64,000 bases of DNA from Sabellastarte sp. h YS-2021 (taxonomy: Eukaryota > Annelida > Polychaeta > Sabellida > Sabellidae). Numbering within the stretch: the stretch's first letter is position 1; each line of letters starts with the position of its first letter. Positions 7,801 to 63,316 of the stretch are shown one piece after another. Where the stretch lies: NCBI GenBank assembly GCA_964017235.1, contig OZ024928.1:89709566-89773565 (forward strand), read 5' to 3'. Under the pieces are notes generated by a model. It was not told where the DNA came from. It searched no databases and saw only the letters and a program-made list of their open reading frames with translations. The position numbers were made by a program, and so were the translations under genes.

Positions 7801-10800
7801 CCTACATCCCTAACTAATGTCCCTACCAAGAATCAATTTCCTACACCTTAAGGCTTCCAAGATATAGCACGGACAAGATTTTAATGGTCAAGGTCACTCT
7901 GGCAAGGTTTAAGGTCAAATCAAGGTCACACCATGATGCTGCACACCTACACCCTCCAACAAATGTCCCTACCATGTATAAACTTCCTACACCTTATGGT
8001 TTCAGAGATATAGTCTGGACACGATTTTAAAGGTCAAGGTCACCATGGCAAGGTCAAAGGTTAAATCAAGGTCACAAGATTGCACACGTACACCAAGCAA
8101 TTGAAAGGAGATTACATAAAACATGCACAGTCCAACACAAGATGGTTATTGACAAAGTATGCACATGGACCCCCAAAGAGATTTCCTTTCACACAAATAA
8201 CTCCACAAATAACTCCAAAAGTATTTGACATTAGGATGTCAAATTTGGCATGTGGATATGTACGGGTGAAGGCAAGAAGGCTATATCTTGCTGACCTTGT
8301 CAGTTGATTTCCAGGTCAGTGGCAGTCTTGAGAAGGTTAAATTTTGCCCATTTTTCAAATTTTGACCAGATTCAGAAATACTATAATTTGGATATTTTTA
8401 GGTTAACATGTATAACAGATATATATGTGCATCTCCTATATAAACCTTCTAAAATTTCACCCTGAATCTCCAAATTTAAGCAAATCACTCAAATCACTCA
8501 CTGGAAAACAACCATGCAGCGGATGAGGATAAACTTTTTTCAGTTCAGTAAATATTCCCTGTATCACTATAGTCTGTAGGATAAAAGGATCACAATATGA
8601 GACACCTTTTGGCAGAGGTATCAATGTAAGAATCAACTGTATCTTTGTATCACAAAATCAGACTATTTCCAGCATAAAGTTGAGCTCATAGCTACTTTGA
8701 TCCAAATTTACATCAGAAGAATCTAAGCAAGCTGCCACCAAGCAACCAGGCAATAAGACTGTATATCTTCTTAATTATGAACTGATTTGTACTGTGACTG
8801 CAACACATAATGCGTCCTTGTCTGAATCCAGATATACCCCCATTACTTACTCTATGAGCCAGAACATGACTGTGTCTCTTTTTATTGGAGAACCAAGCGA
8901 GGCTCCAACTCTGTGTCTAGCCTCTACCCTGTTGCAGCAATGATAGGGTTTGACAGAGGATTAGCACTTGGTAGCACGAGCAGCAAAATCCACTTAGGCG
9001 GACAAGATGGTCAATCATACGAAGGATGAGCTACCTGAAGGGAGTGCAGGCCAGGCAAGCCTGCAGTGAAGGCATGAATCCGGACAGACAAATACTTGCA
9101 GGAACAAATTTGAACCATTTGAAGTGTCACCCAAGCCGACATTATCCATAAATTATGGTGATCAGAACTTTAAAAAGTGCAACTGTGCCACCAAGCTATA
9201 CCTAAGTATCAGGTGGACTTGTTCAAAAGCCAATCAACCGTGTAACAGCAGGAGTCACTACAGGTTTACTTGCTCAAATATCACTTGGGAACTGACACTC
9301 CATACATGAAAGTAAAGGAAATCTTGCACGAAAATAAAGTAATAAGTGTTAATTTTTATTCTGAGTTTTTATAACAAATATCTTATCCACATCAAATTAT
9401 TTCACAGTGTTTTAACTATGGTATTACTAGGTAACTTGTGCGTCAATAAAAGTCAGTACAGGAAATGTTACATCAAAATAAAATAACACTTTGAATCCAA
9501 TTTTAACTAGAAATAGGCCGCCCTGTTGATAGTAGATGCGAATAGAAACAGGATAGCATAGAAGAACACACATTATCATGTGTAATGTCCACCCATGAAC
9601 CTTTTGCCCAAATTGTACAGTAGTCTTACAAGACCCTGTTTCATTTGTAAAATATATCAATGATGCTTAAATATTTGTTAGTGTAGATGTAAATTATTTC
9701 AGCTTCATGCCTTTTTGCATTGGTTGGGTTGAAAATTTTGACGAAATCACTCTATCTTGCACGGTTAAGAAGATAGAAGCAAATTCCTGTTTTTCTATTT
9801 TTGGCAAAAATTTGAAAATTCAAAATGGCCGCCATTTTTGGGAAAAGGAAATTTTTTTGAAAATTGCCAAGAGTACATTTCTTAGATACCCTATGGGTCG
9901 AAAATTTCAACAAAATAACTCTATTTTGCACGGTTAAGGCCAGTTTGTGTTTTTCCATTTTAAGCAAAAATTCGAAAATTCAAAATGGCTGCCATTTTTG
10001 GGGAGGGGAAATTTTTTTGAAAATTGCAAAGATTACATTCCTTAGATACCCTGTGGGTTGAAAAATTTCGACGAAATCGCTCTATCTCGCATGGTTAAGG
10101 AGATAGAAGCAAATTTGTGTTTTGCCATTTTTGGCAAAAATTTGAAAATTCAAAATGGCCGCCATTTTTGGGGAGGGGAAAATTTTTGGAAGATTGCAAA
10201 GATTGCATTCCTTAGATACCCTGTAGGTCGAAAATTTCGACGATATCACTCTATCTCGCACGGTTAAGGAGATAGAAGCAAATTTGTGTTTTGCCATTTT
10301 TGGCAAAAATTCGAAAATTCAAAATGGCCGCCATTTTTGGGGAGGGGAAAATTTTTGGAAAATTGCAAATATTACATTCCTTAGATACCCTGTGGGTTGA
10401 AAATTTCGACGAAATCGCTCTATCTCACACGGTTAAGGAGATAGAAGGAAATTTGTGTTTTGCCATTTTTGGCAAAAATTCGAAAATTCAAAATGGCCGC
10501 CATTTTTGGGGAGGGGAAAATTTTTTGAAAATTGCAAGAGTACACTCCTCAGATACCCTGTGGGTCGAAAATTTTGCCGAAATCGCTCTATCTCGCACGG
10601 TTAAGGAGATAGAAGCAAATTAGTGTTTTGCCATTTTTGGCAAAAATTCGAAAATTCAAAATGGCCGCCATTTTTGGGGAGGGGAAAATTTTTTGAAAAT
10701 TGCAAAGAGTACACTCCTCAGATACCCTGTGGGTCGAAAATTTTGACGAAATCGCTCTATCTCGCACGGTTAAGGAGATAGAAGCAAATTTGTGTTTTGC

Positions 10801-13800
10801 CATTTTTGGCAAAAATTCGAAAATTTAAAATGGCCGCCATTTTTAGGGAGGGGAAAATTTTTTGAAAATTGCAAATATTACATTCCTTAGATACCCTGTG
10901 GGTCGAAAATTTCAACGAAATCGCTCTATCTCGCACGGTTAAGGAGATAGAAGCAAATTTGTGTTTTGCCATTTTTGGCAAAAATTCGAAAATTCAAAAT
11001 GGCCGCCATTTTTGGGGAGGGGAAAATTTTTTGAAAATTGCAAAGATTGCATTCCTTAGATACCCTGTGGGTCGAAAATTTCGACAAAATCGCTCTATCT
11101 CGCACGCTTAAGGAGATAGAAGCAAATTTGTGTTTTGCCATTTTTGGCAAAAATTCGAAAATTCAAAATGGCCGCCATTTTTGGGGAGGGGAAAATTTTT
11201 TAAAAATTACCAAGAGTACAATGCTCAGATACCCTGTGGGTCGAAAATTTCGACGAAATCGCTCTATCTGGCACGGTTAAGGAGATAGAAGCAAATTTGT
11301 GTTTTGCCATTTTTGGCAAAAATTCGAAAATTCAAAATGGCCGCCATTTTTGGGGAGGGGAAAATTTTTTGAAGATTGCAAAGATTGCATTCCTTAGATA
11401 CCCTGTAGGTCGAAAATTTCGACGATATCACTCTATCTCGCACGGTTAAGGAGATAGAAGCAAATTTGTGTTTTGCCATTTTTGGCAAAAATTCGAAAAT
11501 TCAAAATGGCCGCCATTTTTGGGGAGGGGAAAATTTTTGGAAGATTGCAAATATTACATTGCTTAGATACCCTGTGGGTTGAAAATTTCGACGAAATCGC
11601 TCTATCTCGCACGGTTAAGGAGATAGAAGGAAATTTGTGTTTTGCCATTTTTGGCAAAAATTCGAAAATTCAAAATGGCCGCCATTTTTGGGGAGGGGAA
11701 AATTTTTGGAAAATTGCAAATATTACATTCCTTAGATACCCTGTGGGTCGAAAATTTTGCCGAAATCGCTCTATCTCGCACGGTTAAGGAGATAGAAGCA
11801 AATTAGTGTTTTGCCATTTTTGGCAAAAATTCGAAAATTCAAAATGGCCGCCATTTATGGGGAGGGGAAAATTTTTTTAAAATTGCAAAGAGTACACTCC
11901 TCAGATACCCTGTGGGTCGAAAATTTTGACGAAATCGCTCTATCTCGCACGGTTAAGGAGATAGAAGCAAATTTGTGTTTTGCCATTTTTGGCAAAAATT
12001 CGAAAATTTAAAATGGCCGCCATTTTTAGGGAGGGGAAAATTTTTTGAAAATTGCAAATATTACATTCCTTAGATACCCTGTGGGTCGAAAATTTCGACG
12101 AAATCGCTCTATCTCGCACGGTTAAGGAGATAGAAGCAAATTTGTGTTTTGCCATTTTTGGCAAAAATTCGAAAATTCAAAATGGCCGCCATTTTTAGGG
12201 AGGGGAAAATTTTTTGAAAATTGCAAAGAGTACACTCCTTAGATACCCTGTGGGTTGAAAATTTCGACGAAATCGCTCTATCTCGCACGGTTAAGGAGAT
12301 AGAGGGAAATTTGTGTTTTGCCATTTTTGGCAAAAATTCGAAAATTCAAAATGGCCGCCATTTTTGGGGAGGGGAAAATTTTTTGAATATTGCAAAGAGT
12401 ACACTCCTCAGATACCCTGTGGGTCGAAAATTTTGACGAAATCGCTCTATCTCGCACGGTTAAGGAGATAGAAGCAAATTTGTGTTTTGCCATTTTTGGC
12501 AAAAATTCGAAAATTTAAAATGGCCGCCATTTTTAGGGAGGGGAAAATTTTTTGAAAATTGCAAATATTACATTCCTTAGATACCCTGTGGGTCGAAAAT
12601 TTCGACGAAATCGCTCTATCTCGCACGGTTAAGGAGATAGAAGCAAATTTGTGTTTTGCCATTTTTGGCAAAAATTCGAAAATTCAAAATGGCCGCCATT
12701 TTTGGGGAGGGGAAAATTTTTTGAAAATTGCAAAGAGTACACTCCTTAGATACCCTGTGGGTTGAAAATTTCGACGAAATCGCTCTATCTCACACGGTTA
12801 AAGAGATAGAGGGAAATTTGTGTTTTGCCATTTTTGGCAAAAATTCGAAAATTCAAAATGGCCGCCATTTTTGGGGAGGGGAAAATTTTTTGAAAATTGC
12901 AAAGAGTACACTCCTCAGATACCCTGTGGGTCGAAAATTTTGCCGAAATCGCTCTATCTCGCACGGTTAAGGAGATAGAAGCAAATTAGTGTTTTGCCAT
13001 TTTTGGCAAAAATTCGAAAATTCAAAATGGCCGCCATTTTTGGGGAGGGGAAAATTTTTTGAAAATTGCAAAGAGTACACTCCTCAGATACCCTGCGGGT
13101 CGAAAATTTTGCCGAAATCGCTCTATCTTGCACGGTTAAGGAGATACAAGCAAATTACTCAAAAGTAGTACTGAAAATACACAATGAAGTACCTAAATGG
13201 CTATTACTCATGTACTGACAAAGCTATCAGTCCCAAATGCAATACCAAGCGAGCTATGGACATAACAATCTTGTATTCAAAATTGTAGTAAAATATCTTT
13301 AATTATTTTGGCTTAAATGCACGGAAACCAATGGGTACTGAAAATAGCTGTACTTAAGTATTACTCAGTAAGCAAAAGAGGTACAACAGCCAAAAGCAAT
13401 CCCAAGCAAGCTACTGACCCAATAAGCCTGCATACCAAATTTGGTGACAATAGCTCTAATACTTTTCCTTTAAATGAGCGGAAACCATGCGTGACGCCGG
13501 ACATCGGACGCCGGACGCCGGACGCCGGACATCGGACATCGGACATCGGACGGCGAAAAAAGCAAAAATAATATATCCACCCCCCAGGGGGGTGGACATA
13601 ATTATAGTAAATCCATTCAGACAAACTAGTCTATTCATTCAGAATTTCATGAAATCCTAATGTAAATTTTCAGGGATTTGCAAACTCCCTATAATTTTTA
13701 AGGAATTCACAAAGTCCTTCACCCTTGAGATGAATTAATATTCAACTGTATATCTACTAGAAACATCAGAAAAGCAAATGTAGTGATTGGTGATTTATCT

Positions 13801-16800
13801 GAATATCAGACTTCCCGCATGTTATTTATGGATAAAAACAATAATTCAATAAGTTTGAATAGCATCCAGTTCACCATTTTGTTATTTACTTCTTGGTTTC
13901 TTTTGACTCTTCTTTGAAGAAGTTAGCCTGTTTTTGGATGCCTAATTACACCACCTCAGTCCTTACACAATGCGTTCATTAGATGAATAAAAATTCAGTG
14001 CACAAATTATATATAGCTGAAGTACAAAAATATAACCATTTTTATTAGTGTTGGGATGATTAGACATGTGCTCGATTAATTGTCGGTGACAGTGTACAAT
14101 CGAGGTCCATCATTGTCTTTTTTCTAATAATTGAACTATCAGCTTAAATCTTACCTTTCTTAATGCACCTCAATATCCACATATTTTTAAAAATATTTTT
14201 GGCATTATTATTTAATAAATGGACAGATTTGTCATGAAATTCGAGTTTGTTTATATCTACTGCCATATTTATGGGAAGTGGGTATTTTTGGTAGATTTTA
14301 AATGTTGGAACACCGTTATTCTTACCGGATTAACCTATACTTCATCCCGGAAAGTGTTTCTTAAGTAATGACTAACAATGGAGTAAAATAATCAATTAGG
14401 GGTCGATCATTGGTCGGAAATATGGACGAATAATTGACCATGAAAGTTGGAGGAGAGTCCCAACATTACTTTTTATACTGATATTATGATAAAGCAAGCT
14501 TTGCATTAAAAGATTACAAAAAAGAAGTCACACCTACCAGAATATCACCATGTTTGATCACAATATTATTATCCATTGGATAAAATGCCTGCGGCCACTG
14601 AGGGTTACCTTTACCCATTAAATGCCATGAACCATTGTACTGGTAGCCTGATATCACAGTACCTGAAACAAAATTACGAGTACTATAACATAATGTCTCT
14701 TTTACAAATAATTGACTTTATGACCTCACTGTCACTACTGCTTAAATTACATTTTCCAACTGTTATTCATTGCATACATTATACACCAAACATAATGGAG
14801 TCCTAGTATAAAGAAAGTTGTGCAAAACTGGTGGTATAAATCAATGGCCATAGTTGGCCATAGATGGCAAATAGTTACTTCTCCTATACACTGAAATTAT
14901 GCAATAACTGAAATGGTGATGACCATATCTGCTGACACAGTCCAAAAGCTGACAAATTATTGATTAGAAAAATATAAGCTTCACTGATTTCTACTGAACA
15001 TCTGTATGGCAGGTCAAGACTGTCTTAAGATCTTAACATCTACATCTACACATGTATGCACATAAATTTTAGGTTTTTATTCCACAAAACTACTGAAAAA
15101 GCATTAACTTACTGAGTGAGTGAGCGTGTACACGAAAACCAAATGGATATATCGGTGATTTCCCATCAAACTTGCATGAAATATCTGCATGAACATCTGA
15201 AAAGGGTACAAAACAGTCAATTTTAACTCCTTTTTTATAATAGCCACAACACAATAACTGTACAATTATCAAATAAATAACAGAGACCACTACATTTAAA
15301 ATGAACCCTTTAAATGAATTTTTTTTCTACAAATTGCTAAATAAGTACCAATTAAATAGGTCCACCTAAAGCTTCCAAATTGTATATTTCAACTGGTTAA
15401 AATCGATCTATATGGGAAACTGGTTAATTTGGCTGTTGGTTAGTTTGGAGATAAAACCAACAACCAGCTAAAAACATCAAAAACAAGTTCTTACTTGCAC
15501 TTTTCAAAATTATTTTTTCCTCAAAATTTCAATATTATAAATACCTATCTTTACTTACCTACTTAGCAAGTTTTTTAAGATAAAAAAAAAGGATAGTTTT
15601 TGTAAACCAAACAATAAGTTGTGGAAAACTGAAATCCACTGCAATTCTGCAGTAAATATGAGGGTTGAGTTGTACAGCCTTAACACAGAGAAATTTATGT
15701 ACTTACTGTGTGAGTGAGAAGGAACATATATCGAACCAGTAACCATCAACAAAATGCCAGCTCTGTACTTCTGTGGCTGTGCTGTAGTGGCAAAGCTCAA
15801 CCCTGATTCATCTGGTGGGTCTTGGTCTGTTAAATGTTTATTTATCTTTCATGATACAGGAGTAAGAAATTTGCCAATGTATGTAACATATGCCACTGCA
15901 GGGGCACCCTCCACAAAAAAGAGCTAATGTAGTAAAAAAAAAAATCACAAGTGTCCAAAGAGTTTCCCATATTTCAAGGATGTATATTGTAGAGGGCATT
16001 TCCTCGATTGCAAATTTGACATACTTTGACAAATCTGACATTTTTTACTCTAAGTATAATCACAATAGAGGAAAAGCTACAAAACAGAATTTTCTTTGAT
16101 TTGCAAGCCTTCAACTTACAAGTCAAAAATATATATGTATATCACATCCACAAATGCATCAAAAGTCATTTAACCAAATGGATTTGTTTGTATAATTTTT
16201 ATCTCAGGGTGAAAGAAAACCATATGTTACTGTTTGGTTCTTTAAAATAACAAAACTTAAAATTTTGGGAACTTCCTATTTATAAAGCAAAATATATAAC
16301 CTGAGCCACAATTCTGACACACATGACCTTGATTAAAAATTTGTTTTGTCAATAAAACAGGCTATATCGAACATTAATTATTGCAATGCAATCTATTCAT
16401 AAGAACGGTCTCTTCATAATATTACCTTCTTAATATATTAAGAAAACAAGACCACTGCCGTGGTATGATCTCCCGCCGCACTACATCAAAAAGTAGGTGA
16501 ACAACATATTTGACAAAACTCCTATATGGTTATCATTAAAAATTGACAAAGTAGCTATTACTCACTTAGCTATGGAGATACACTTCCAAACTAGATTGGG
16601 CCAACTCGGCGCCAACATATCCCCAGACAGGTCATCACTCACGCCACAGGTTTTGATCGGGAATTTTTTAAAACATAATTACCCATTATTATATGAACTT
16701 CAGCACATCAATCTACTCTGTTTATATCTTCCCAAGGAAGATGGTCTATCCCCAGACACCGAATACATAACTCAAATTATATTTTCAATCTTCCTGCAAT

Positions 16801-19800
16801 GATAACTCTAAACCTATTTTCAAAGTATTTAAATGATTGATGATTGAATGTCCATTCTAAAATAATAATCCCAAAAGAGCATATCTGTTTCTATATTTGT
16901 TGACAAATAAAATATTAGTTTTAACTCAACTCATCATACTTTTCAATCTTCCTTCAAAGTATTTAAATGATTGATGACTCAATGTCCATTCTAAAATTCA
17001 TAATCCCAAAACGCATATCTGTTTCTATATTTGTTCACAAATAAAATATTATTTTTAAAAAAATTATTGATATTATTATTTTATTATATTATTTTAGAAT
17101 TTGCAAATTGTTTTCAGTTATTCATTTCCTCTATACCTATATATGTGGTCCATATATATGCAACCTAAATATGTGACACAATCTCAGTTCTGACTCCCCT
17201 TTGTGTTATATGTAATGAAGCCCACCACCTCCCACCCCCACCCCTCTCCCCTTCTCCACACCTCTCTCACTATTACACAAGATCTGCAACCCCATTGAGT
17301 TCTTTGTTTCTCATCTGATATCATTAAATACCTTTGTTTATTTAGTGTCACTCAATATAGCTGGAGGTCCCAGAGGTGGGTGGGGGGAATCCGGGTGTGG
17401 GATGTGGGTTGGGACTACAAAGAGATGGAGCATAAATGGTAAACAAACAATCTATATAAAAGGGGTACTCAAATACAAAAAGAATTGAGAATTTTAAGTA
17501 TGTGATTATCAACTGAAATGAGTTCATAACTGTAGGAGCTGTGTCAAAATTAACTGAGGCAAGCTGAATAAAACTGGGCTAGTTGAGGGTTAAAAATCCC
17601 CTAGTTTTACTACATAAGGATATAATTTCATTAATATTGGGACTTAAAGCTCACTTAAAGTGTCCATTTTGTCTACTTGAATATGTTTAACCAGTTTCAT
17701 TTTAAAAAGTTAAAAACTCAGCAAGAGAGGTATAACACACAAAAATAAGTTCTTAAAAGACTAAGATAGCCATAACATTATTAATATTCAAAATTTAAAT
17801 AGACAGGCATTTCCTTTTAAAAATTCAAAGATTTCAGCTCTATAACCCACATAGTTTGACAGTTACTGGGCTTTAAAGTGGCATAATGTCCAAAAATTGG
17901 GTTTCTGTGGGCATTTTACAATTGTTAAAGAGACCTTAGCAATTAAACTACAGATCTGAAACTTTTTGGGGGACATACATAACAAACAAAAATTATATAT
18001 AATACAGTTTAAGACTTGTCACACTAAGCATTTCCAAATAACAGGGCAAAATACGGAAAAAATGTCCAAAAAGGCACTTGGGCGAGTGTCTATGGCCCTC
18101 ATACACAGGTTAAATGTCTACTAAAAACCTTGATTTTCGGCATATGTAAAAAGGACATAATAATGCATTCCCAGATGGGATTTCAGCTCCATCAACCACA
18201 TAGTTTAACAGTCACAGGGCTTAAAGGTGGTAAAAAGTCCAAATATTGGGCCTCTGTGGGCCTTTTAGAGATCTCGATGTGGCTTTCAAATTAAAGCTTC
18301 AGACTTAAAATTTGTTACATACTAAGATTACACATAGAATATGTATCTAATAAAGTTTGAAACTTCTCAGACTTACCATTTCCAAGTTACAGAGCAAAAT
18401 ATGTGAAAAATGTCTTAAAAGGGTCACTCAGGTGGGTGTTTAAGGTCCTCATACACAGGTTAAATGTCTACTTGAAGCCTTGATTTTTGGCACATGTAAA
18501 AAGAACATAATAATGTATTCCCAGATGAGATTTCAGCTCTATCAGTCACATAGTTTAACAGTCACAGGCCTTAAAATTGGCAAAAAGTCCAAATACTGGG
18601 TCTTTATGGGGCCTTCTAGAGACCTAAATGTGGCCTTCAAATTAAAGCTTCAGACTTAAAATTTGTCACATACTAAGATTACACATAGAATATGCATCTA
18701 ATACAGTTTGAAACTTCTTAGACTTACCATTTCCAAGTTACAGGGCAAAATATGTGAAAAATGTCTAAAAATGGTCACTCGGGTGGGGATTTATGGTCCT
18801 CATACACAGGTTAAATGTCTTCTTAAAGCCTTAATTTTTGGTACATATATAAATAATATACTAATATCTTCCCAGATAGGATTGGAGCTCTATCAGTCAC
18901 ATAGTTTGACAGTCACAGGGCTTAAAAGTAGCAAAAAGTCCAAATATTGGGTCTTTGGGAGCCTTTTAGAGACCTCAATTTGTCCTTCAAAATTAAAGCT
19001 TCAGACTTAAAATCTGTTACATACTAAGATTACACACAGAATATATATCTAATACAGTTTGAAACTTCTCACACTTACCATTTCCAAGTTACAGGGAAAA
19101 AGATGTGAAAAATGTCTTATAAGGGTCACTCGGGTGGGTGTTTATGGTCCTGATACACAGGTTAACTGTCTATTAAAGGCCTAAATGTTGGGGCACATAT
19201 AAGAAAACACATAGATATATTCCCAGATGATATTTCACTTAGATGAGAGACATAGTTTGAAAGCTACAGTGCTTGAAAGTGGCAAAAAGTGCATAAATTG
19301 GGTCTCTGTGGGCACTTTTGAGACCTTAAGTCGACCCTTTTGGGTAAACCTACAGCCCTAAAATTTTCTACAGACAAGGATTACATATGAAAGTTATACC
19401 TAGCGCAGTTTGAGACTCATCAGAATTACCACTTCCAAATTATAGGGCAAAATATGTGAAAAGTATAGCAAAAAATCCCTAAGTGGGGGTATTTATGGGC
19501 CTCAAACACAATTTTCTCCTCAACTTAAAGTCGTGATTTTCGGCACATGTACTAAGAACATATTAATGTGTTGTCAGGTAAAATTTCAGCCAGCTGAGCA
19601 TCATAGTTTGTGACCTACAGGGCTCTAAGTGGCCAAAAGTGCAATTTCTGACCTTAAGGTGGCCATAAGTTCTTTTTTACTGGGAGTTTAAGGTCACCTA
19701 AAAATAGGGATCTTCCTTTGGGCACCCTTAACATGTGTACCAAGTTTGAAAAAAAAATATTAATTTGTTTTTGAGTTATCGCGTCCACAAGGAAATTTCT

Positions 19801-22800
19801 ACGGCGGCGGCGGCGGCGGCGGCGGCGGCGCGACGGACCTGAATCCAATATATCCCCGACTTTCGTCTGGGGATATAACTAGTGACCATGTTGTAGCTGT
19901 GGAGATAGTAGCTGAACAACATATTGGAACAAAATTGTGCAGCTGCAATACTTTTGAAGATATAAGCCATTTACTCATTATGGTTATCATCAAAGTAGCT
20001 ATTACTCAGTTAGCTATGGAGTTACAGCTGTGAAAATTCACAATACAGTATATCCAAAAGATAGGTGAACAACATATTCGACAAAAATCCTCTATATTCA
20101 ATAGTTTTTGAGTTATAAGTGACTTGCTCAATGGTCAAATGTTAAACTTAGTATAGCTATTACTCAGTTAGCTATGGTGCTACACCTTGGACACCTCACC
20201 ATGATATAGTACATGAAGGAGTTGTTGAACAACATATTTCAGGCCAATATTGTCAGTAACAGTTACAAAGACAAAATCAATTTACTCATTTTGCTCATTG
20301 TTAATAACAGAAAATAGCTATTACTCACTTAGCTATGAAGATAGAACCCTAAAATGGTACCATCTTGTAGGCATGGAGAAAGTAGCTGAACAACGTATTT
20401 TACAGAAACACTCTAAATGCACTCGTTTTGGAGTTATGAGCACTTTACTCAAAGTAGCCACCATTGCTATTACTCACTTAGCTATGGTCCTAGGTGTGAA
20501 ATAACAGTATCAAATGAAAGGACATAAGCAATAAGGTCTTAAAAAACATTGAAAAGGCCAAGGAGAAACAACCAGTGTGATGTACAGCCCTTTATAAAAG
20601 CGTGACACACACTCAATAGCATTTACTCATTTTCAGTAGGTGAGTAATTAGCTACGAGTCTGAAACTTCACCATGTGAAAGCTCTCCCAAAAGTAGATGA
20701 ATGACTTAAAAAGTAGATATACAACTTATTTGAGAGAAATTGTGTAGCTGCAATACTTTTGAAGATATAAGGCATTTACTCATTATGGTTATCATTAAAA
20801 ATTGACAAAGTAGCTATTACAGTTTGCGAGATATTTGTCATTTTTCACATTTTCACCAAAAGTAGCAATAAAGTAGCCATTACTCACTTGTACATTGAGC
20901 AACAGTTGTGAAACTTAAATATGTTACAGTTCACAAAAAAGTAGATGAACAACTTATTTGAGAGAAATTGTGTAGCTGCAACATTTTTGAAGATATACAT
21001 GTAAGGCATTTACTCATTATGGTTATCATTAAAAAATGACAAAGTAGCTATTACTCACTTAGCTATGGAGATACACTTCCAAACTAGTGATAATGTTGTA
21101 GCTGTGGAGATAGTAGCTGAACAACATATTGGAACAAAATTGTGTAGCTGCAATACTTTTGAAGATATAAGCCATTTACTCATTATGGTTATCATCAAAG
21201 TAGCTATTACTCAGTTAGCTATGGAGTTACAGCTGTGAAAATTCACAATACAGTATATCCAAAAGATAGGTGAACAACATATTTGACAAAAATCCTCTCT
21301 ATTCAATAGTTTTTGAGTTATAAGTGACTTGCTCAATGGTCAAATGTTAAACTTAGTATAGCTATTACTCAGTTAGCTATGGTGCTACACCTTGGACACG
21401 TCACCATGATATAGTACATGAAGGAGTTGTTGAACAACATATTTTAGGCCAATATTGTAAGTAACAGTTACAAAGACAAAATCAATTTACTCATTTTGCT
21501 CATTGTTAATAACAGAAAATAGCTATTACTCACTTAGCTATGAAGATAGAACCCTAAAAATGGTACCATCTTGTAGGCATGGAGAAAGTAGCTGAACAAC
21601 GTATTTTACAGAAACACTCTAAATGCACTCGTTTTGGAGTTATGAGCACTTTACTCAAAGTAGCCACCATTACTATTACTCACTTAGCTATGGTCCTAGG
21701 TGTGAAATAACAGCATCAAATGAAAGGACATAAGCAATAAGGTCATGAAAAAAATGGAAAAGGCCAAGGAGAAACAACCAGTGTGATGTACAGCCCTTTA
21801 TAAAAGCATGACACACACTCAATAACACACGCCCGGCCGGTGGGAGATAACTATACATTCAAATGTATTTGGAAGGCGAAGAAAAAAAACAGATTTTACC
21901 TGTAAAGCCCCTTCTGTAGTGGATCTGTACCACAATGTAATTTACCTTTGCATGTTCACCAATCTCAAACCCAACATCTACAAATAAGATTAACCAGAAT
22001 AACAACTGAATATCAACAGTTTGGTTTTGCATAACAACACCAGTAGAGCAATAGGTGTGAAACCTGCCACTGGAGGTAGTACCCATTGCTTTCTAGTGCT
22101 GTGAAGCTGCTTATAATTTTGTGTTCGATGCTTGGTATTTCTAGCAGCCAGCGAACTTCGATGTAGTTTGATTATCAAACTGACATTTTCAAAAACAGTA
22201 AAAATACAGAAATCTGAAAATAAAATCTTGTCACTTTGTTGAAAGTAAGGAGAAAATATGAAATCCATAGATATTTTACATAAATTTCACTATATTCTCA
22301 ATAAAATGTAAGTTTTATAAGATGGGCAAAAATAGTATCCACTGGGTTGTGTATTGATGTCGGTGATTTCTAAATGTTTTTCAGAGTCTGAATTTCAGAC
22401 ATTTGAATCAAACTTTGAATTCGGGCCAGAAAACAGGCAAACTATCAAACATCTACAAACATCATCGCAGCACTATTGCATTCGGTGCCCATTTTGCATC
22501 TGGGGAGATCAGGCGTCATATGTAGTTGCGAAAATCACAAAAACACATAAAATTTCCCACAAATGAAGTAGATAGAATTAGACTTCCTCACTAGTAACTT
22601 TCATAAACTGTAGCAAAAGTCCCTTTTGTTTTTGTATATTAAGTAAAATGTGATGCATATTTCTTAATATTATGTAACAATTTTTGAAAGAGAGTATATC
22701 AAATTTCTGTTTTGGGGTAAATTAACAAAATTAATATGAAGTATTTGGGATTCATTGGTGTATGTAACATGCAGGTTTTACCATCAAATATATAATAGAA

Positions 22801-34300: not shown

Positions 34301-34384
34301 GCCTTTGTAAACTAGAAATAGGATGCATTGGCATGCGTAATGTCCACCCAAAGGGAAGCATGATTTTTGCTCTAAAACTTGGAC

Positions 34385-35245
34385 AAAATTGGCAAGAGTA
34401 GATCACTGAGATACCCTGTGGGTCAAAAATTTTGACAAAATCGCTCCATCTCGCACGGTTAAAGAGATAGAAGCAAATTTGTGTTTTTCCATTTTTGGCA
34501 AAAATTCGAAAATTCAAAATGGCCACCATTTTTGGGAAGAGGAAATTTTTTTTGAAAATTGCCAAGAGTACATTTCTTAGATACCCGAGTACATTTCTTA
34601 GATACCCTGTGGGTCGAAAATTTCGACGAAGTTGCTCTATATCACACGATTAAGGAGATAGAAGGAAATTTGTGTTTTTCCATTTTTGGCAAAAGTTCTA
34701 AAAATTCAAAATGGCCGCCATTTTTGGGGAGAGTAAAATTTTTTGAAAATTGCCAAAAGTATATTGCTTAGATACCCTGTGGATCGAAAATTTTGATGAA
34801 ATCGCTCTATCTCGCATGATTAAAGAGATAAACTTGAACAAAATTGGCAAGAGTAGATCACTGAGATACCCTGTGGGTCAAAAATTTTGACAAAATCGCT
34901 CTATCTCGCACAGTTAAAGAGATAGAAGCAAATTTGTGTTTTTCCATTTTTGGCAAAAATTTGAAAACTCAAAATGGCCGCCATATTTGGGGAGAGGAAA
35001 TTTTTTTGAAAATTGTCAATAGTACACTTCTTAGATACCCTGTGGGTCGAAAATTTCGACGAAATCATTTTCGACAAAATCGTTCTATCTCGCACAGTTG
35101 AAGAGATAGAAGCAAATTTGAGTTTTTCCACTTTTGGCAAAAATTCGAAAATTCAAAATGGCCGCCATTTTTGGGGAGAGGAAAATTTTTTTGAAAATTG
35201 CCAAGAGTACATCGCTCTATCTCGCACTGTTTAGGAGATAGACAT
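34385..35245 (+). repeat. 169-bp satellite, second array (about 5 diverged copies)
   Basis: The blocks match those of the 9.7-13.2 kb array (AAAATGGCCGCCATTTTTGG, GATACCCTGTGGGTC), with partial duplications such as the doubled ATTTCTTAGATACCC near 34580. Copies are more diverged from one another than in the large array. Confidence 0.92.
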
Positions 35246-35259
35246 ATTTATGTTTTTTG

Positions 35260-35900
35260 CTATGTAACTATTACTCAGGATGTTAAAGCTATTACCACCA
35301 ACAACAATACCAAGCAAGTAATTGACGCTATAAACCTTCACACCAAATTTTAAAAAGATGAGTTAAATATGTTTCCTTTAAAAGAGTGAAAACAGAAATG
35401 CAATTCAGAGTAGGCTCAAAATAGCAAAGCAGCTATTACTCAGATAGCTACAAAGCTATCATCAACAAAAAGCTTTCCTGGCCAAATTATTGACATAATA
35501 ATTATCCTTCACATAAATTTTTATGAAGATAAACAACATTGTTTTATTAAAATGTCCAGAAAAAGTCAACTCAAAATAGCATAATAGCTATATAACACAG
35601 TAGTTATTACTCAGTTAGCTATAAAGATATTATGACCAAAAGCAATCCCAAGCAAGCTACTGATCCAATAATCCTCCATCCCAAATTTTGTGAACATAGG
35701 TGAAATACTTTTCCTTCAAAATGCTTAAAATAAAAAAGCTACTCGAAGTAGCTAAGTAGCTATTACTCAGTCAAATACATAGCTATTATCATTAAAGCAA
35801 TCCCAAGCAAGCTATTGATTTAACTATTGCTCCATCCAAATTTGGTATAGATATGTCAAATATTTTTCCTTAAAATGCCCAGAAACGAAAGAAGTAAAAA
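35260..35900 (+). repeat. About 160-bp TATTACTCAGT repeat, left part
   Basis: About four units with AGCTATTACTCAGTTAGCTA, AAGCAATCCCAAGCAAGCTA, CCAAATTT and TTTTCCTT.AAATG. The same repeat lies at 13185-13490 and 40440-41390. Confidence 0.88.
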
Positions 35901-36059
35901 AAACTAGAGGATCGCTCGCAAAAAAAAAAGATAATGTTTTTGCATAGCAAAAACAAAGCGTCCCGAAAAGGATATAAAGTTGAGTGCTAAAGTATTAAGA
36001 AAATGCTTCGTTTCTAGCCTTATACTGTTGTGGCAACCAAAGTCAGTGCAGTCTGCTCT

Positions 36060-36312
36060 ATCTATCACGGTTTTCAACATATAAGCATTTTTGTGTTTTG
36101 CAAAAAATAAAAAAAATTAAAAATGTCCGCTATATTTGGCGAGACAAAAATATTTTGAAAATTGGCATGGCTACTCTGCAGAGATACCCAGCAGGTCCAA
36201 AATTTTGTTGAGTTCACTCCATATAGCACGGTTTTCGAGATATAAGCATTTTTGTGTTTTGCAAAAACTTTGAAAATTCAAAATGGCCACCATTTTTGGG
36301 GAGACAAAAATT
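36060..36312 (+). repeat. 169-bp satellite, beta variant, left part
   Basis: About 1.5 units of the variant with CACGGTTTTCGAGATATAAGC and GGCGAGACAAAAATTTT. They break off at 36312 where the gamma-like 5' end begins. Confidence 0.85.
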
Positions 36313-36313
36313 T

Positions 36314-38942: not shown

Positions 38943-40060
38943 TTTGGGATAGCTGCTCTGCAGAGATACCCTGAAGATAAAAAATTTCATCGAAATCGCT
39001 CTATGTAGCACGGTTTTCGAAATATTAGCATTTTTGTGTTTTGCAATTTTTGCGCAAAAATTCAAAATGGCCGCCATTTTTGGCAAGATAAAATTTTTTT
39101 GAAAATTGGCATGGCTACTCTGCAGAGATACCCAGTGGGTCAAAAATTTCGTCGAAATCGCTCTATCTAGCACGGTTTTCGAGATATAAGCATTTTTGTG
39201 TTTTGCAATTTTGCGAAAAATTCGAAAATTCAAAATGGCCGCCATTTTTTGGGAGAAATTTTTTGTTTGAAAATTGGCATGGCTACTCTGCAGAGATACC
39301 CTGTGGGTCAAAAATTTCGTCGAAATCGCTCTATCTAGCAGGGTTTTTGAGATATAAGCATTTTTATGTTTTGCAATTTTTGCGAAAAATTCGAAAATTC
39401 AAAATGGCCGCCATTTTTGGCGAGACAAAAGTTTTTTGAAAATTGGCATGGCTACTCTGCAGATATACCCTGTGGGTCAAAAATTTCGTCGAAATCGCTC
39501 TATCTAGCAGGGTTTTCGAGATATAAGCATTTTTATGTTTTGCAATTTTTGCGAAAAATTCGAAAATTCAAAATGGCCGCCATTTTTGGCGAGACAAAAA
39601 TTTTTTCAAAATTGGGATAACTACTCTGCAGAGATACCCTGTGGGTCAAAAATTTCGTCGAAATCGCTCTATCTAGCACGGTTTTCGAGATATAAGCATT
39701 TTTGTGTTTTGCAATTTTTGCGAAAATTTCGAAAATTCAAAATGGCCGCCATTTTTGACGAGACAAAAATTTTTTCAAAATTAGGATAACTACTCTGCAG
39801 AGATACCCTGTGGGTCAAAAATTTCGTCGAAATCGCTCTATCTAGCACGGTTTTCGAGATATAAGCATTTTTGTGTTTTGCAATTTTTGCGAAAATTTCG
39901 AAAATTCAAAATGGCCGCCATTTTTGGCGAGACAAAAATTTTTTGAAAATTGGGAAAACCACTCCGCAGACATACCCTGTGGGTCAAAAATTTCGTCGAA
40001 ATCGCTCTATCTAGCACGGTTTTCGAGATATAAGCATTTTTGTGTTTTCCTTATTTGGAA
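38943..40060 (+). repeat. 169-bp satellite, beta variant, about 6.6 copies
   Basis: 169-bp spacing (39366, 39535, 39704). Units share AAAATGGCCGCCATTTTTGG and GATACCCTGTGGGTCAAAAA with the alpha array but have CTAGCACGGTTTTCGAGATA in place of the TCGCACGGTTAAGGAGATAG stretch. Open frames of 60-133 residues here are repeats. Confidence 0.95.
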
Positions 40061-40439
40061 AATTCGTAATGATTAATTAATCATTAATTACTCAGCCATT
40101 TCTTGACCAATCAATGCCAAAATCTAATGATTTCCAGATTTTAATAGAATGAATGTATTTGCCAAGTTTCAGGTCAATTGATAAAATTCCTTTCAAGTTA
40201 TCATCCGGACAAGCTTCCCCATCGAAAAAAGACATTTTTGGTCATGTGACCTCTCTGATTGGTTGAAATGTCACTGCAGCATATTCAAAAAAATTCCCCA
40301 AGGCTACTGCCTAAACCTGCCAAATTTGAAAAGAATCCGCCTAACGGTTACAGAGTTATAAGGAAAACAAAATGCGGAGCCGGCGGAGCCGGAAGCTCTC
40401 CCATACACAAACAAGCGTCCCTTGCGGGACGCTTAATTA

Positions 40440-41390
40440 GCTAAGTAGGTATTACTCAGTTAGCTATAGCTACAAAGCTATCATCAACCAAAAGCTATCC
40501 TGGCCAAACTATTGATACAATTATCCTTCATATAAATTTTTGTGAAGCTAGAAAACATTGTATTCCTTTAAAATGCTTAAAATAAAAAAGCTACTCAAAG
40601 TAGCTGACTAGCTATTACTCAGTTATATAGCTATTATCACTAAAAGTAATCCCAAGCAAGTTACTGACCTAACTATTGCTCATACCAAATTTGGTAAAGA
40701 TATGTCAAATATTTTTCCTTAAAATGCCTGAAAACAAAAGAAGTACACAAAAGTAGCTAAGTAGCTATTACTCATATAGCTATAGCTACAAAGTTATCAT
40801 CGACCAAAACCTATCCTGGCCGAAGTGTTGACACAATTATCCTTCATATACATTTTTGTGAAGATAGAAAACATTGTTTCATTAAAATGTCTAGAAAAAA
40901 GTCAACTCAAAATAGCATAATAGCTATATAGCACAGTGGCTATTACTCAGTTAGCTATAAAGGTATTATCACCAAAAGCAATCCCAAGCAAGCTACTGAT
41001 CCGATAATCCTCCATACCAAATTGTGTGAACATAGGTGATATACTTTTCCTTTAAAATGCTTAAAATAAAAAAGCTACTAAAAGTAGCTAAGTAGCTATT
41101 ACTGAGTGAGTTATACAGCTATTATCACTAAAAGCAATCCCAAGCAAGCTATTGACCTAACTATTACTCATACCAAATTTGGTAAAGATATGTCAAATAT
41201 TTTTCCTTAAAATGCCTGAAAATAAAAGAAGTACACAAAAGTAACTAAGTAGCTATTACTCAGTTAGCTATAGAGCTATCTTCACCAAAAGCAATCTTAT
41301 GCTAGCTATTAACCCAATAAACACCCATACCAAATTTGGTAAACACAGGATAAATACTTTTCCTTGAAATGACCGGAAACCAAGTGTGAC
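40440..41390 (+). repeat. About 160-bp TATTACTCAGT repeat, right part
   Basis: About six units (motif near 40448, 40611, 40764, 40938, 41093 and 41250), continuing the alpha array interrupted at 35.9 kb. Confidence 0.9.
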
Positions 41391-41454
41391 GGACGGCGGA
41401 TGCCGGAAAAAGCAAAAATAATATGTCCACCCCCCAGTGGGGTGGACATAATCA

Positions 41455-48354: not shown

Positions 48355-48629
48355 AAAAACATAAACGTCCTGAAGGGCAACAAATGGCACACATCCTGAC
48401 ATTACACATGTACTAGGCTACCACCTTGAGTATCAAGGATGTGCCCCGCATTAAAAGAAACAAGACCACTGCCGTGGTATGATCTCCCACCGCACTACAT
48501 CAAAAAGTAGGTGAACAACATATTTGACAAAACTCCTTTAAATTGAATAGTTTTGCTGTTATAAATTATTTAAATCAAAAAAGTCAAAGTAGCTATTACT
48601 GAGTTAGCTATGGACCTACAGCTTTCAAA

Positions 48630-49305
48630 ATTTGCAATGAGTTATTTGAGAAAAATTGGCTAAGTACAATACTTTTAAGAGATAATTCACATTTACTCAT
48701 TTTGAGTAGGTGAGTAATTATCTACGGGTCTGAAACTTCACCATGTGAAAGCTCTCCCAAAAGTAGATGAATGAGTTATTTGAGAAAAATTGGCTATCTG
48801 CAATACTTTTAGAGATAATTCACATTTACTCATTTTGAGTAGGTGAGTAATTAGCTATGGGTCTGAAACTTCACCAAGTGAAAGCTCTCCCAAAAGTAGG
48901 TGAATGGGTTATTTGAGAAAAATTGGCTATCTGCAATACTTTTAGCGATAATTCGCATTTACTCATTTTGAGTAGGTGAGTAATTAGCTATGGGTGTGAA
49001 ACTTCACCAAGTGAAAGTTCTCCCAAAAGTAGGTGAATGAGTTATTTGAGAAAAATTGGCTATCTGCAATACTTTTAGCGATAATTCGCATTTACTCATT
49101 TTGAGTAGGTGAGTAATTAGCTATGGGTGTGAAGCTTCACCAAGTGAAAGTTCTCCCAAAAGTAGGTGAATGAGTTATTTGAGAAAAATTGGCCATCTGC
49201 AATACTTTTAGAGATAATTCGCATTTACTCATTTTCAGTAGGTCAGTAATTAGCTATAGGTCTGAAACTTCACCATGTGAAAGCTCTTCCAAAAGTAGGT
49301 GAATG
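48630..49305 (+). repeat. 133-bp satellite, about 5 copies
   Basis: Same unit as at 36.4-38.9 kb (TTTTGAGTAGGTGAGTAATT, CACCAAGTGAAAGCTCTCCC). Confidence 0.93.
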
Positions 49306-50420
49306 ACTTAAAAAGTAGATGAACAACTTATTTGAGAGAAATTGTGTAGCTGCAATACTTTTGAAGATATAAGGCATTTACTCATTATGGTTATCATTAA
49401 AAATTGACAAAGTAGCTATTACGGTTTGCGAGATATTTGTCATTTTTCACATTTTCACCAAAAGTAGCAATAAAGTAGCCATCACTCACTTGTACATTGA
49501 GCAACAGTTGTGAAAGTTAAATATGTTACAGTTCACAAAAAAGTAGATGAACAACTTATTTGAGAGAAATTGTGTAGCTGCAATACTTTTGAAGATATAA
49601 GGCATTTACTCATTATGGTTATCATTAAAAATTGACAAAGTAGCTATTACTCACTTAGCTATGGAGATACACTTCCAAACTAGTGACCATGTTGTAGCTG
49701 TGGAGATAGTAGCTGAACAACATATTGGAACAAAATTGTGTAGCTGCAATACTTTTGAAGATATAAGCCATTTACTCATTATGGTTATCATCAAAGTAGC
49801 TATTACTCAGTTAGCTATGGAGTTACAGCTGTGAAAATTCACAATACAGTATATCCAAAAGATAGGTGAACAACATATTCGACAAAAATCCTCTATATTC
49901 AATAGCTTTTGAGTTATAAGTGACTTGCTCAATGGTCAAATGTTAAACTTAGTATAGCTTTTATTCAGTTAGCTATGGTGCTACACCTTGGACACCTCAC
50001 CATGATATAGTACATGAAGGAGTTGTTCAACAACATATTTCAGGCCAATATTGTAAGTAACAGTTACAAAGACAAAATCAATTTACTCATTTTGCTCATT
50101 GTTAATAACAGAAAATAGCTATTACTCACTTAGCTATGAAGATAGAACCCTAAAAATGGTACCATCTTGTAGGCATGGAGAAAGTAGCTGAACAACGTAT
50201 TTTACAGAAACACTCTAAATGCACTCGTTTTGGAGTTATGAGCACTTACTCAAAGTAGCCACCATTGCTATTACTCACTTAGCTATGGTCCTAGGTGTGA
50301 AATAACAGCATCAAATGAAAGGACATAAGCAATAAGGTCATAAAAAACATTGAAAAGGCCAAGGAGAAACAACCAGTGTGATGTACAGCCCTTTATAAAA
50401 GTGTGACACACACTCAATAA

Positions 50421-50462
50421 CACACGAACACACGCACACACACACAAACACACACACGCACA
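50421..50462. repeat. CA-rich microsatellite
   Basis: Interrupted (CA)n just upstream of the gamma hairpin. At 21.82 kb the equivalent tract has been shortened together with the hairpin's left arm. Confidence 0.9.
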
Positions 50463-50765
50463 GAATGCATTTTATAATCTCCCGCCCGGCCGGCGGGAGA
50501 TAATAAACTTTTTGCATAGTTAATGGATATATTTACCAAAATTTATTTCACTTACAAAATTTCATCATTGTTTATACAAACAGGAAGTGCAGAAAAAGTG
50601 TCTATATTACTGCAAACACAGAAAATTGTGTTCCGACATCTAAATGCTTTACACTGTTAATACATTTAAGTGGATATTTTAAAGTTTAAAGTGACAGTAA
50701 TTTTCAGATATTGAAGTTTTTTGTGTGGCGAGGAACTCTGTCCCAAAATGCCATCCATCAGTTTT

Positions 50766-54190: not shown

Positions 54191-54192
54191 GT

Positions 54193-56555: not shown

Positions 56556-56709
56556 CTGGCAATTATAGAAATATATTCACAAGCTAACAGTATTGAAACA
56601 ATAACTTTTGTTTGTGTTTAGATCAAAACAAATATACACACTCTGTTTTTAACTAACAATATCACTATGCTGAAAAAGCCTCTACCTGTCCGCTTTTGTC
56701 TAAAATTTA

Positions 56710-57300: not shown

Positions 57301-57329
57301 TCCGTGATTAGGAAGGAAAAAATTTGTTT

Positions 57330-58600: not shown

Positions 58601-58609
58601 GAATGGGGT

Positions 58610-60581: not shown

Positions 60582-61199
60582 GTAGGGATTTTGTCAATTT
60601 TATCTTGCTGTGTTAATGTGTCTTCAACAGGTTTTCAGAGTTGAGGTGCATGTATTTAGCAAAGGTCATGTTACATAATGTAAATGTCAAAAAGTAAAAT
60701 TTTTTTAAAAAAATAGCCTGCCATACAAGTAACACTACAAATATGATATCATATTCACACAAAGAAAAAGCAGCCAGGGCTGGACGTTAACTTTGTTTAG
60801 CACTTACTGGTGGGGCAAATGGCATTCAAATTTCACTTGCACTGACCTAAAATCTCTATGCCTGTACTTTGTTGTTCCATAGGTTATTGTATCCACCGGA
60901 AGCATCCGGTGGATACTTTGGTTTAGTGCTCGCTACGCCGCCGCCGCGCATAGAGAGATTTTCGGCGTTAACGCTCTAAGAGGAAAACAACATCAGCTAG
61001 GTTCACCAAATTTGCAGGATATCTTCATTGGGGGGTAAGCTTCTCTGGGAAGGAAAATAGCCTCATTCTGAAAAACAAGATGGCCGCCACGGGCATTTCT
61101 TTGAAAATAATCTACATTTTTCTACTGGCTGTTCCTCATAGGTAGAAGGTTGAATCTCTTCATAGGTGATATATATGACACATATACATGTCCTCTACA

Positions 61200-62990
61200 A
61201 CCTTGCACACATTTGACCTTGAAGCTCCTAATTCGAGGTCATCCACGGAGTGCCGAAGTAACCCACATAACGGACTTTAAAAGTGCCTATATCTCCCTTA
61301 TTATTGGTCCTAGAGGTTTGCAATGTGAAGCCAACCTATAGGAAATCATGTGCTGCGAATCTTCTGATGTGGTCAGTAGATTTGACCTTGGACCCCTCCT
61401 TCAAGTTCAAACGAGGATAGCCAAACTTAAAAGTAGGGATGGGTCGGTATGAAAAATATGTACATCGGGAGGTCGCCAATGCAAAACCGTACCGAATTCG
61501 GGACTCCGCGTTTTAGTTCTCCCCAAACAAACATGGACGTTTAGGATAACAACGTCGCAATAAAAGCTCCCAAATGCACGAAATATGCAATAAAAAGATA
61601 AAATATCTTGATATTTCTGGTTTCTGTCCACCATTTTAAGTTTCCCTTCATTTATATTAGTTGACAAGCGAAAATGAGGTTATAAAGTGTCGTAACCAAA
61701 ACATGGCAGTTCTGCTCAACGTATCGCTATAAAAGTCTAAATGGACGAAAATATGAAATAAAAGCTTATAGTTTCTTCAGATTTAGGGTATGTTTCTAAT
61801 ATTTTAACTCTTGCTTCCATTATATGTGCTGAAAAGCGAAGTGGCGGTTGTAAAATCTCATTACGGTATTTCAGTAAAATGGTCTCGATACCGAGATACC
61901 GGAACTACCGACCCATCCCTACTTAAAAGTGCTTATAACTCGCTTATTATTGATCCTAGAGGTTTGGGATGGTAAACCAACATATGGAAATCATGGGCTG
62001 GGAATCTTCTGGTGTGGTCAGATTTGACCTTGGGCCCCTCCTTCAAGGTCAAACGAGGACAGCCAAACTTAAAAGTGCTTATAACTCGCTTATTATTGGT
62101 CCCAGAGGTTTGGGATGGTAAACCAGCATATAGAAAATCATGGGCTGGGAATCTTCTGGTGTGGTCAGATTTGATCTTGGGACCCTCCTTCAAGGTGAAA
62201 CGAGGATAGCCAAAGGTAAAAGTGCCTATAACTCGCTTATTATTGGTCCTAGAAGTTTGGGATGGTAAACCAACATATAGAAAATCATGGGCTGGGAATC
62301 TTCTGGTGTGGTTGGATTTGACCTTGGGCCCCTCATTCAAGGTCAAACGAGGACAGCCAAACTTAAAAGTGCTTATAACTTGCTTATTATTGGTCCTAGA
62401 GGTTTGGGATGGTAAACCAACATATAGGAAATCATGGGCTGGGAATCTTCTGGCGTGGTCGGATTTGACCTTGGGCCCCTCCTTCAAGGTCAAACGAGGA
62501 CAGCCAAACTTAAAAGTGCTTGTAACTCGCTTTTTATTGGTCCTAGAGGTTTGGGATGGTAAACCAGTATATAGGAAATCATGGGCTGGGAATCTTCTGG
62601 TATGGTCGGATTTGACCTTGGGCCCCTCCTTCAAGGTCAAACGAGGATAGCCAAAGGTAAAAGTGCTTATAACTCGCTTATTATTGGTCCTAGAGGTTTG
62701 GGATGGTAAACCAACATATAGAAAATCATGGGCTGGGAATCTTCTGGTGTGGTCGGATTTGACCTTGGGCCCCTCGTTCAAGGTCAAATGAGGACAGCCA
62801 AACTTAAAAGTGCTTATAACTCGCTTATTATTGGTGCTAGATGTTTTCTGATGGTAAACCAACACATAGGAAATCATGCGCTGGGAATCTTCTGGCGTGG
62901 TCGGATTTGACCTTGGGCCCCTCCTTGAAGGTCAAATGAGGACAGCCAAACTTAAAAGTGCTTATAACTCGCTTATTATTGGTCGTAGAG
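61200..62990 (-). repeat. 147-bp satellite, about 8 copies
   Basis: The unit is exactly 147 bp in 62064-62950 (AGCCAAACTTAAAAGTGCTT, ATTATTGGTCCTAGAGGTTT, CATGGGCTGGGAATCTTCTG, GGGCCCCTCCTTCAAGGTCA). 147 is divisible by 3 and two frames lack stops, so a 314-codon minus-strand frame (61933-62877) and a 142-codon plus-strand frame appear. Both are repeat artefacts. Confidence 0.95.
61434..61921. mobile_element. hAT MITE, 488 bp, 16-bp perfect ends and 8-bp target duplication
   Basis: TAGGGATGGGTCGGTA at the left is exactly inverted as TACCGACCCATCCCTA at the right. CTTAAAAG flanks both sides (61426-61433, 61922-61929). Inserted within the 147-bp satellite. Confidence 0.95.
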
Positions 62991-63316
62991 GTTTTGGTGC
63001 AGTGTCTTTACGGTGGATACAATTTGCATCGGTTCTCCAATGCGCTAGGTCTAGTTTAGCATATCTTAAGATAAAGAATTACATTTTAACAGGGTTTTCT
63101 GCATGACATGTTGCTTGCCATGTACAATGTCATATTACTAGGGCCAGAGTCTCCCACTGGTTTTGCAGTGAACCTTAAAGTTGTAGTCATCAGATATACA
63201 ATACATTAAGACAAGACTAAAAGGGTTTAAAAAAAAAAGGGTGGGCAAGTGAAGTACAAAATCCACTTGCCCTGACAAGAAATTCACTAGCGGGCAGATG
63301 TTAACGTCCAGCCCTG

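Follow-up and report, generated by a model that had tools for sequence, protein, structure and literature searches.

Elements of the DINE-1, HINE and Helitron2 kind have at their 5' end a subterminal inverted repeat (subTIR) that lies at, or very close to, the terminus and folds back on an inverted partner (PMC4067079, PMC5148889, PMC2374699, PMC7492417). The 3' copy of this repeat is set back from the end of the element, by some 38–60 nt in the mite HINEs reported (PMC4067079), and in DINE-1 and HINE a separate palindrome follows it (PMC4067079, PMC2374699, PMC7492417). The authors of DINE-1 considered the naming of the two ends arbitrary in elements without open reading frames (PMC2374699). 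In the Pacific oyster, 11 Cg_HINE elements with differing satellites have been described (Vojvoda Zeljko et al., 2020; PMC7492417), and oyster satellite repeats are often the central repeats of Helitrons (PMC11136912, PMC8268682). These statements, like all those cited below, draw on parts of the papers named. Here we describe a group of satellite-carrying elements, very probably further members of the HINEs, in a stretch of 64,000 nt from the polychaete Sabellastarte sp. h YS-2021 (GCA_964017235.1, contig OZ024928.1, positions 89,709,566 to 89,773,565). This stretch is called the window, and all coordinates are positions within it in plus-strand numbering.

A shared layout in five families

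Seven elements in the window have both ends: alpha1, alpha2, beta, gamma1, gamma2, delta and epsilon. They belong to five families, each with one to three copies in the window. In all seven, the arm of a terminal hairpin is found again, inverted, near the opposite end. Read in the orientation of the element, the layout is TT, a folding 5' subTIR, a microsatellite, central repeats, a 3' subTIR, a palindrome, CTAG or CTTG, and a T-run of the host; by this orientation epsilon is a plus-strand element, and the members of alpha, beta, gamma and delta are minus-strand ones. We classify the elements, with high confidence, as non-autonomous rolling-circle transposons of the Helentron/Helitron2 branch, that is, as HINEs. 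They are placed there because the defining HINE features open to test are present: a 5' subTIR a few nucleotides from the 5' end, with an inverted partner, in all seven two-ended elements; a 3' subTIR that lies some way in from the 3' end; a palindrome between the two in five families; a microsatellite and central tandem repeats; and insertion at TT without a target-site duplication, as seen in two empty sites and in the flanks. The anatomy, the nested insertions, the two paralogous empty sites and the common end and target bases are read directly from the window.

An earlier note on this DNA, made from the sequence alone, had already proposed Helentrons or HINEs, and the anatomical features bear this out. 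The six hairpins that it named, with their inverted partner motifs, lie where it placed them (alpha1, alpha2, beta, gamma2, delta and epsilon). Its polarity has to be turned around: because the hairpin end is terminal and the inner motif has a palindrome before the other end, its 5' and 3' labels are exchanged here, so that the hairpin is the 5' end and the former "5' motif" is the 3' subTIR with its own small palindrome. The motif given for gamma is present, starting one base early, with the G of GATCTCCC outside the arm. The note further described the five hairpin sequences as unrelated, yet all five share a TCC(A/C)C or TCCCG core within their first 11 nt. It also overlooked the hairpin end of gamma1 (21848), a hairpin that stands alone (zeta) and a further gamma copy, gamma3 (36318), which is truncated. 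That several families have one layout is as expected, because DINE-1/HINE elements and the 11 oyster Cg_HINE families have it as well.

Nested insertions and empty sites

Delta (16591..19878, minus strand; CTAG at 16591-16594, TT at 19877-19878) is inserted within gamma1 (16447..21850, minus strand; CTTG, CAAG on the plus strand, at 16447-16450, TT at 21849-21850), and beta (35904..40436, minus strand; CTAG at 35904-35907, TT at 40435-40436) within alpha2 (34312..41451, minus strand; CTAG at 34312-34315, TT at 41450-41451). The earlier note had called for mapping the termini with empty sites, and two such sites, for delta and for beta and both paralogous, were found within the window. Uninterrupted references for the delta site are gamma2 (48461..50503, minus strand; CTTG at 48461-48464, TT at 50502-50503) and a duplicated part of gamma1, which carries an internal tandem duplication (19877-20621 and 21082-21827). 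When delta and 6 bp are removed, with one AACTAG kept, a gap-free alignment of gamma1 with gamma2 has 133 identical positions out of 134. When beta and 6 bp are removed, alpha2 aligns gap-free over 154 bp to its best paralogous unit, near 40.7 kb. At that unit three offsets were tried, and removal of 6 bp scored 228 against 219 and 217; two further paralogous units gave the same ranking, while a unit at 35.5-35.8 kb departed from it, with the 0-bp offset best (107 against 102 and 97). The added 6 bp are read as the TT and CTAG of the element rather than as a duplication, because the 3' tetramer is constant within alpha and gamma while the 5' flanks vary.

A third copy of gamma, gamma3 (36318..38943, minus strand), is located inside the repeat array of beta. 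It has an intact 3' end (CTTG, palindrome and a subTIR at 36340) and 133-bp repeats, and lacks a 5' hairpin; it may be either a 5'-truncated insertion or the outcome of later recombination between arrays.

Terminal sequences

The 5' hairpins lie at 41421-41449 in alpha2, 40413-40434 in beta, 21826-21848 in gamma1, 50477-50501 in gamma2 and 19850-19876 in delta. In the two elements outside the nests they lie at 13574-13599 in alpha1 (9507..13601, minus strand; CTAG at 9507-9510, AA on the plus strand, equal to TT, at 13600-13601) and at 60886-60916 in epsilon (60884..63054, plus strand; TT at 60884-60885, CTAG at 63051-63054; a single copy with no empty site). The fold-back arms of gamma1 have decayed, and the two subTIR copies of gamma2 differ by one base. 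TT directly precedes the hairpin at all eight 5' ends, counting the seven two-ended elements and zeta, the last of which was chosen partly for its preceding TT. The subTIRs start with ATGTCCACCC in alpha, AAGCGTCCCG in beta, ATCTCCCGCC in gamma, ATATCCCCAGAC in delta and ATTGTATCCACCGG in epsilon. The core TCC(A/C)C or TCCCG, a motif picked after the sequences were known, stands inside the first 11 nt in five of five families and is absent from zeta; in the non-array parts of the window it occurs in 73 of 9886 11-mers that follow TT (0.74%).

The 3' subTIRs are found at 9585-9594 (alpha1), 34340-34349 (alpha2), 35956-35965 (beta), 16468-16477 (gamma1), 48482-48491 (gamma2), 16617-16628 (delta) and 63011-63023 (epsilon), at distances from the 3' end of 21 nt in gamma, 26 in delta, 28 in alpha2, 31 in epsilon, 52 in beta and 78 in alpha1. 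The element closes with CTAG in alpha1, alpha2, beta, delta and epsilon and with CTTG in gamma1, gamma2 and gamma3, and TT follows in seven of the eight cases. Between subTIR and tetramer, palindromes are strong in alpha1 (9568-9583), beta (35935-35955, a 9-bp stem), gamma (16451-16464 in gamma1, 48465-48478 in gamma2) and delta (16596-16615), and weak and imperfect in alpha2 (34323-34338) and epsilon (63026-63043). Each 3' end was folded as single-stranded DNA against 200 shuffles. None of the shuffles folded as well as or better than the identical ends of gamma1 and gamma2, while three did so for beta, four for delta and five for alpha1; the energies of alpha1 and beta take in a second small stem. 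Between alpha1 and alpha2 one stem pair is altered on both sides, from A-T to G-C, while, where alpha1 has another stem pair, C-G, alpha2 shows a mismatch that reads C.A on the element strand and T.G on its complement.

Two ends appear doubled. Delta has a second 3' end 129 nt further in than the outer one, consisting of an exact 11-nt subTIR (16747-16757) and a 7-bp palindrome (16726-16742), and alpha1 has a possible doubled terminal 11-mer (two mismatches, P ~0.018). Both would suit the bypass of an end, in delta as if a new 3' terminator had come into use after an earlier one was passed over, but two cases are too few to establish it.

A purine stands ahead of the 5' TT in seven of seven two-ended elements, against a background of 0.47 before TTT. 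The four bases before TT also resemble the element's own 3' tetramer: over the seven elements 15 of 28 positions are identical (mean 7.07, P 0.00077), a figure that falls to 8 of 20 and loses significance (P 0.10) once beta and delta are set aside. This resemblance of the targets to CTNG suggests, without establishing, a single nick sequence for both ends and the target.

Central repeats and their relations

Tandem arrays are present in all five families. Alpha1 has 169-bp units (9725-13156), as does beta (38944-40048), and the two sets are about 81% alike. Gamma2 has 133-bp units (48636-49310) that are 96% alike to those of gamma3, delta has 351-bp units (17829-19462) and epsilon 147-bp units (61921-62994). 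A microsatellite is clear in alpha1 (GTCC-rich, 13493-13552), delta ((CCG)n, 19802-19830) and gamma2 (GT-rich), and is short or doubtful in alpha2, beta, gamma1 and epsilon, the last with a short CCG-like stretch after the hairpin. Two further arrays are related to these families: that at 46.4-47.9 kb is about 71% like the non-array part of gamma, and that at 45.6-46.2 kb is 85% like the array of epsilon. The presence of related arrays in families with different ends, as in alpha and beta, fits the published view that transposons of this kind spread satellite DNA.

Zeta (48325-48354, or to 48356 with its TT; minus strand) is a hairpin of the 5' type with 13-bp arms and a loop of 4. In element orientation TTTTT precedes it and a GC-rich stretch follows. 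A 3' partner was sought in 38001-48300, where the best candidate, with 3 mismatches in 12, was rejected as unconvincing.

Chance, controls and rival explanations

How often such ends arise by chance was estimated with a basic mechanical search for TT, a hairpin with a motif X of 10 nt, and X again in inverted form no more than 9 kb away. It found 12 distinct 5' ends in the window, where 120 dinucleotide shuffles averaged 2.07 (maximum 6). The full grammar, which further demands CT(A/T)GTT and a stem following the 3' copy and was defined after the elements were known, gave 3 against a mean of 0.017 (maximum 1) in 120 dinucleotide shuffles. In a parallel run with slightly different settings, seven inverted rows met the full grammar and correspond to four elements (alpha1, alpha2, beta and delta); the grammar misses gamma2 for its one-base subTIR difference, gamma1 for its decayed hairpin and epsilon for its imperfect palindrome, and these three were identified by inspection. 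By itself the mechanical grammar is no proof.

Several observations weigh against the HINE classification or the end pattern described here. In that same parallel run, a control for direct instead of inverted copies in the same window returned 750 rows against 35 with the basic pattern and, with the full grammar, 3 rows (in two places) against the 7 inverted ones. Gamma3 is followed by AC rather than TT at its 3' end. TC takes the place of TT in front of an epsilon-like remnant, decayed and with its end at 46359, and the TT of zeta comes after a T instead of a purine. The weak palindromes are equalled or bettered by 16 of 200 shuffles in alpha2 and by 30 of 200 in epsilon (for which the folded stretch started two bases inside the subTIR and stopped two bases short at the 3' end), and each of these stems has one C.A mismatch on the element strand. 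The CTNG end was recognised post hoc, and that of epsilon is known from one copy. A 2-bp TT duplication and a TT borne by the element are indistinguishable here, the same ambiguity that the authors of DINE-1 faced (PMC2374699). Finally, Pfam scans found no Rep/helicase or autonomous copy in the parts of the window that they covered, about 20.7 kb lying outside them.

That the window holds nothing but ordinary satellite arrays with chance hairpins, and no mobile element, would account for the direct-copy counts, since satellites generate many repeated motifs and those of the window inflate such numbers; nevertheless, nested insertions with gap-free empty sites refute a plain-satellite reading, copies at different loci have common ends, the shuffle counts are low, and we give this explanation almost no credence. 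Cut-and-paste miniature inverted-repeat transposable elements (MITEs), with terminal inverted repeats and a target duplication of 2 or 6 bp, are an improbable alternative. The insertions of beta and delta each add exactly 6 bp outside the interval from hairpin to subTIR, and the flanking 6-mers on the plus strand are AACTAG and AACTAG for delta and AACTAG and AATTAG for beta. Among the seven elements, however, the two 6-mers are identical only in delta; those of beta differ at a single base, and those of the remaining five elements at two or three (5' and 3', on the element strand: ATAATT and CTAGTT in alpha1, ATGATT and CTAGTT in alpha2, ATAGTT and CTTGTT in gamma1, TTTATT and CTTGTT in gamma2, TAGGTT and CTAGTT in epsilon). 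The 3' 6-mer is constant within a family, and the 6-bp duplication hinted at by beta and delta was rejected, being largely refuted by this constant 3' tetramer beside variable 5' flanks. Nor are symmetric repeats found: one repeat is terminal and the other lies 21-78 nt inside. Canonical Helitrons (Helitron1) start with 5' TC, have a hairpin 10-12 nt before CTRR, insert between A and T and have no subTIRs. The elements here start with TT, have inverted repeats and in gamma end with CTTG; agreement with CTRR is limited to the four families that have CTAG.

If the elements are HINEs, a Rep/helicase provided in trans would nick R^TT (R, purine) next to the 5' hairpin and peel off one strand; peeling would halt at CTNG^TT, once the 3' subTIR and its palindrome had been passed, and the freed strand would be joined into a target of the R^TT type. 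The satellite arrays would be passive cargo, growing and shrinking through recombination or slippage. The enzyme involved, the places where it nicks and the rolling-circle route are inferred. Whether each family was moved by its own Helentron, and not by one shared enzyme set as the earlier note thought possible, we regard as evenly balanced: subTIRs and 3' palindromes are family-specific, gamma has CTTG against CTAG elsewhere, and in the oyster ten autonomous Repbase elements could not be related to Cg_HINEs (PMC7492417), while TT, the TCC core, CTNG^TT and purine-TT targets are common to all five families. A more specific proposal is tentative, and we think it rather less probable than its opposite. 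In it, elements with HINE bodies, in at least five families, would retain a Helitron or proto-Helentron tail, CT(A/T)G^TT, with R^TT marking both ends as well as the target; one nick specificity of Rep would explain all the ends while subTIRs and palindromes diverged freely, and the target resemblance would be a trace of the nickase.

Coding content and other repeats in the window

The Pfam scans covered, in six frames, 1-9002, 13602-17829, 21850-34304, 41452-45602, 50502-60887 and 60886-63998; the parts outside them (9003-13601, 17830-21849, 34305-41451 and 45603-50501) are about three fifths tandem array. The only matches in the scanned parts were copper monooxygenase and repulsive guidance molecule (RGM) domains and a sub-threshold reverse transcriptase (E 0.0094). 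The copper type II monooxygenase is in two parts, both encoded by the minus strand, around 14.6 and 33.0 kb, and is presumably a peptidylglycine monooxygenase gene. An RGM exon lies on the plus strand near 60.2-60.6 kb. By these genes the window looks like animal DNA, and the tandem arrays with element ends sit between and around the monooxygenase and RGM exons.

Related copies were sought by pattern scans of viral contigs (four scans) and genome contigs (one), a set that may lack records from the source genome of the window or from one very close to it. Two scans gave no match and the other three gave 6, 4 and 29 short exact matches. No gamma subTIR stood beside the match in the six stretches from one viral-contig scan, and comparison of all fetched loci with the window yielded a single weak 35-bp match (E 1e-3); the outside matches are treated as chance. 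A search of one collection of published papers for five sequence strings from the elements found none of them.

Repeats of other kinds were also seen. A MITE inside epsilon (61434-61921) has the ends TAGGGATGGG and CCATCCCTA and is flanked by the 8-bp direct repeat CTTAAAAG. A second element (44650-45199), with the ends TAGGGGTGGGACGAG and TGCACCCCTA and the 8-bp CTAACAAT at each side, overlaps a 335-bp tandem duplication. We take both to be hAT-like. Two stretches of about 180 bp (26047-26224 and 31432-31611) form an inverted repeat; they are 98% alike, lie 5.2 kb apart and are possibly copies of a single interspersed element, and the Pfam scan gave no match between them. At 50766-52509 a segment of about 870 bp is duplicated in tandem, with the copies 95% alike. 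Related tandem repeats of about 146 bp, rich in AAGGTCA, occur in opposite orientation at 7716-8094 (and 5978-6068) and at 55336-55823; they are possibly another satellite-carrying element, whose ends were not found.

Comparison with known systems

In summary, the elements are further HINEs, whose shared layout is already known and mostly ordinary, with a detail of the end that is possibly new. They add new HINE families with satellite cargo, and their deep nesting gives exact ends without genome-wide data. The likeness to Cg_HINEs, drawn from description and not from sequence, is extensive: a 5' subTIR of 11-12 bp with an inverted partner 1-12 bp off, a microsatellite, satellite-like central repeats, a 3' subTIR, a palindrome, insertion at TT in T-rich sequence, and several families with different repeats (PMC7492417). 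The elements here differ in the CTAG or CTTG at the 3' end and the purine before TT, neither of which the parts of that paper drawn on mention. More widely, the portions of the literature examined, PMC7492417, PMC4067079 and PMC5148889 among them, make no mention of CTAG ends for HINEs, and the CTNG detail may be new or already published.

DINE-1 of Drosophila (Yang and Barbash, 2008) likewise has a subTIR with a partial inverted partner, a GTCY-rich microsatellite, central repeats, TT insertion, and a stem-loop a few nucleotides past the 3' subTIR that its authors suggest is kept through compensatory change (PMC2374699). It differs in its target, WTTTT, and in having a conserved core of more than 90 bp, a DINE-1 feature for which no search was made here (PMC2374699). 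DINE-1 subTIRs mostly start with (T)ATACC, 13 of 14 in Table 1 of PMC2374699, whereas those here start with AT-n-TCC or AAGCGTCC; a likeness between them is plausible from these letters.

In Helitron2 and the FoHeli elements of Fusarium, the terminal inverted repeats are likewise asymmetric, with hairpins at both ends of FoHeli1 and FoHeli2 and a 3' repeat that is set back; FoHeli1 and FoHeli2 differ in ending with ATTTT and inserting between TNAT and T, and central satellites are not described for them in the parts of the source drawn on (PMC5148889). Proto-Helentron-Pi of Phytophthora infestans resembles the elements here at its very ends, with 5' TT, 3' CTAG and no target-site duplication, but it is autonomous (about 14 kb, with Rep/helicase), inserts between A and T and has a Helitron-like structure (PMC4067079). 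The elements here, by contrast, also carry the subTIRs of HINEs and a set of central repeats, and the base in front of their insertions is A or G. Should further copies bear out the CTNG^TT end together with the matching R^TT target, the pair would provide a testable nick sequence for the Helentron Rep and would tie the HINEs of this animal to the proto-Helentron type of end.

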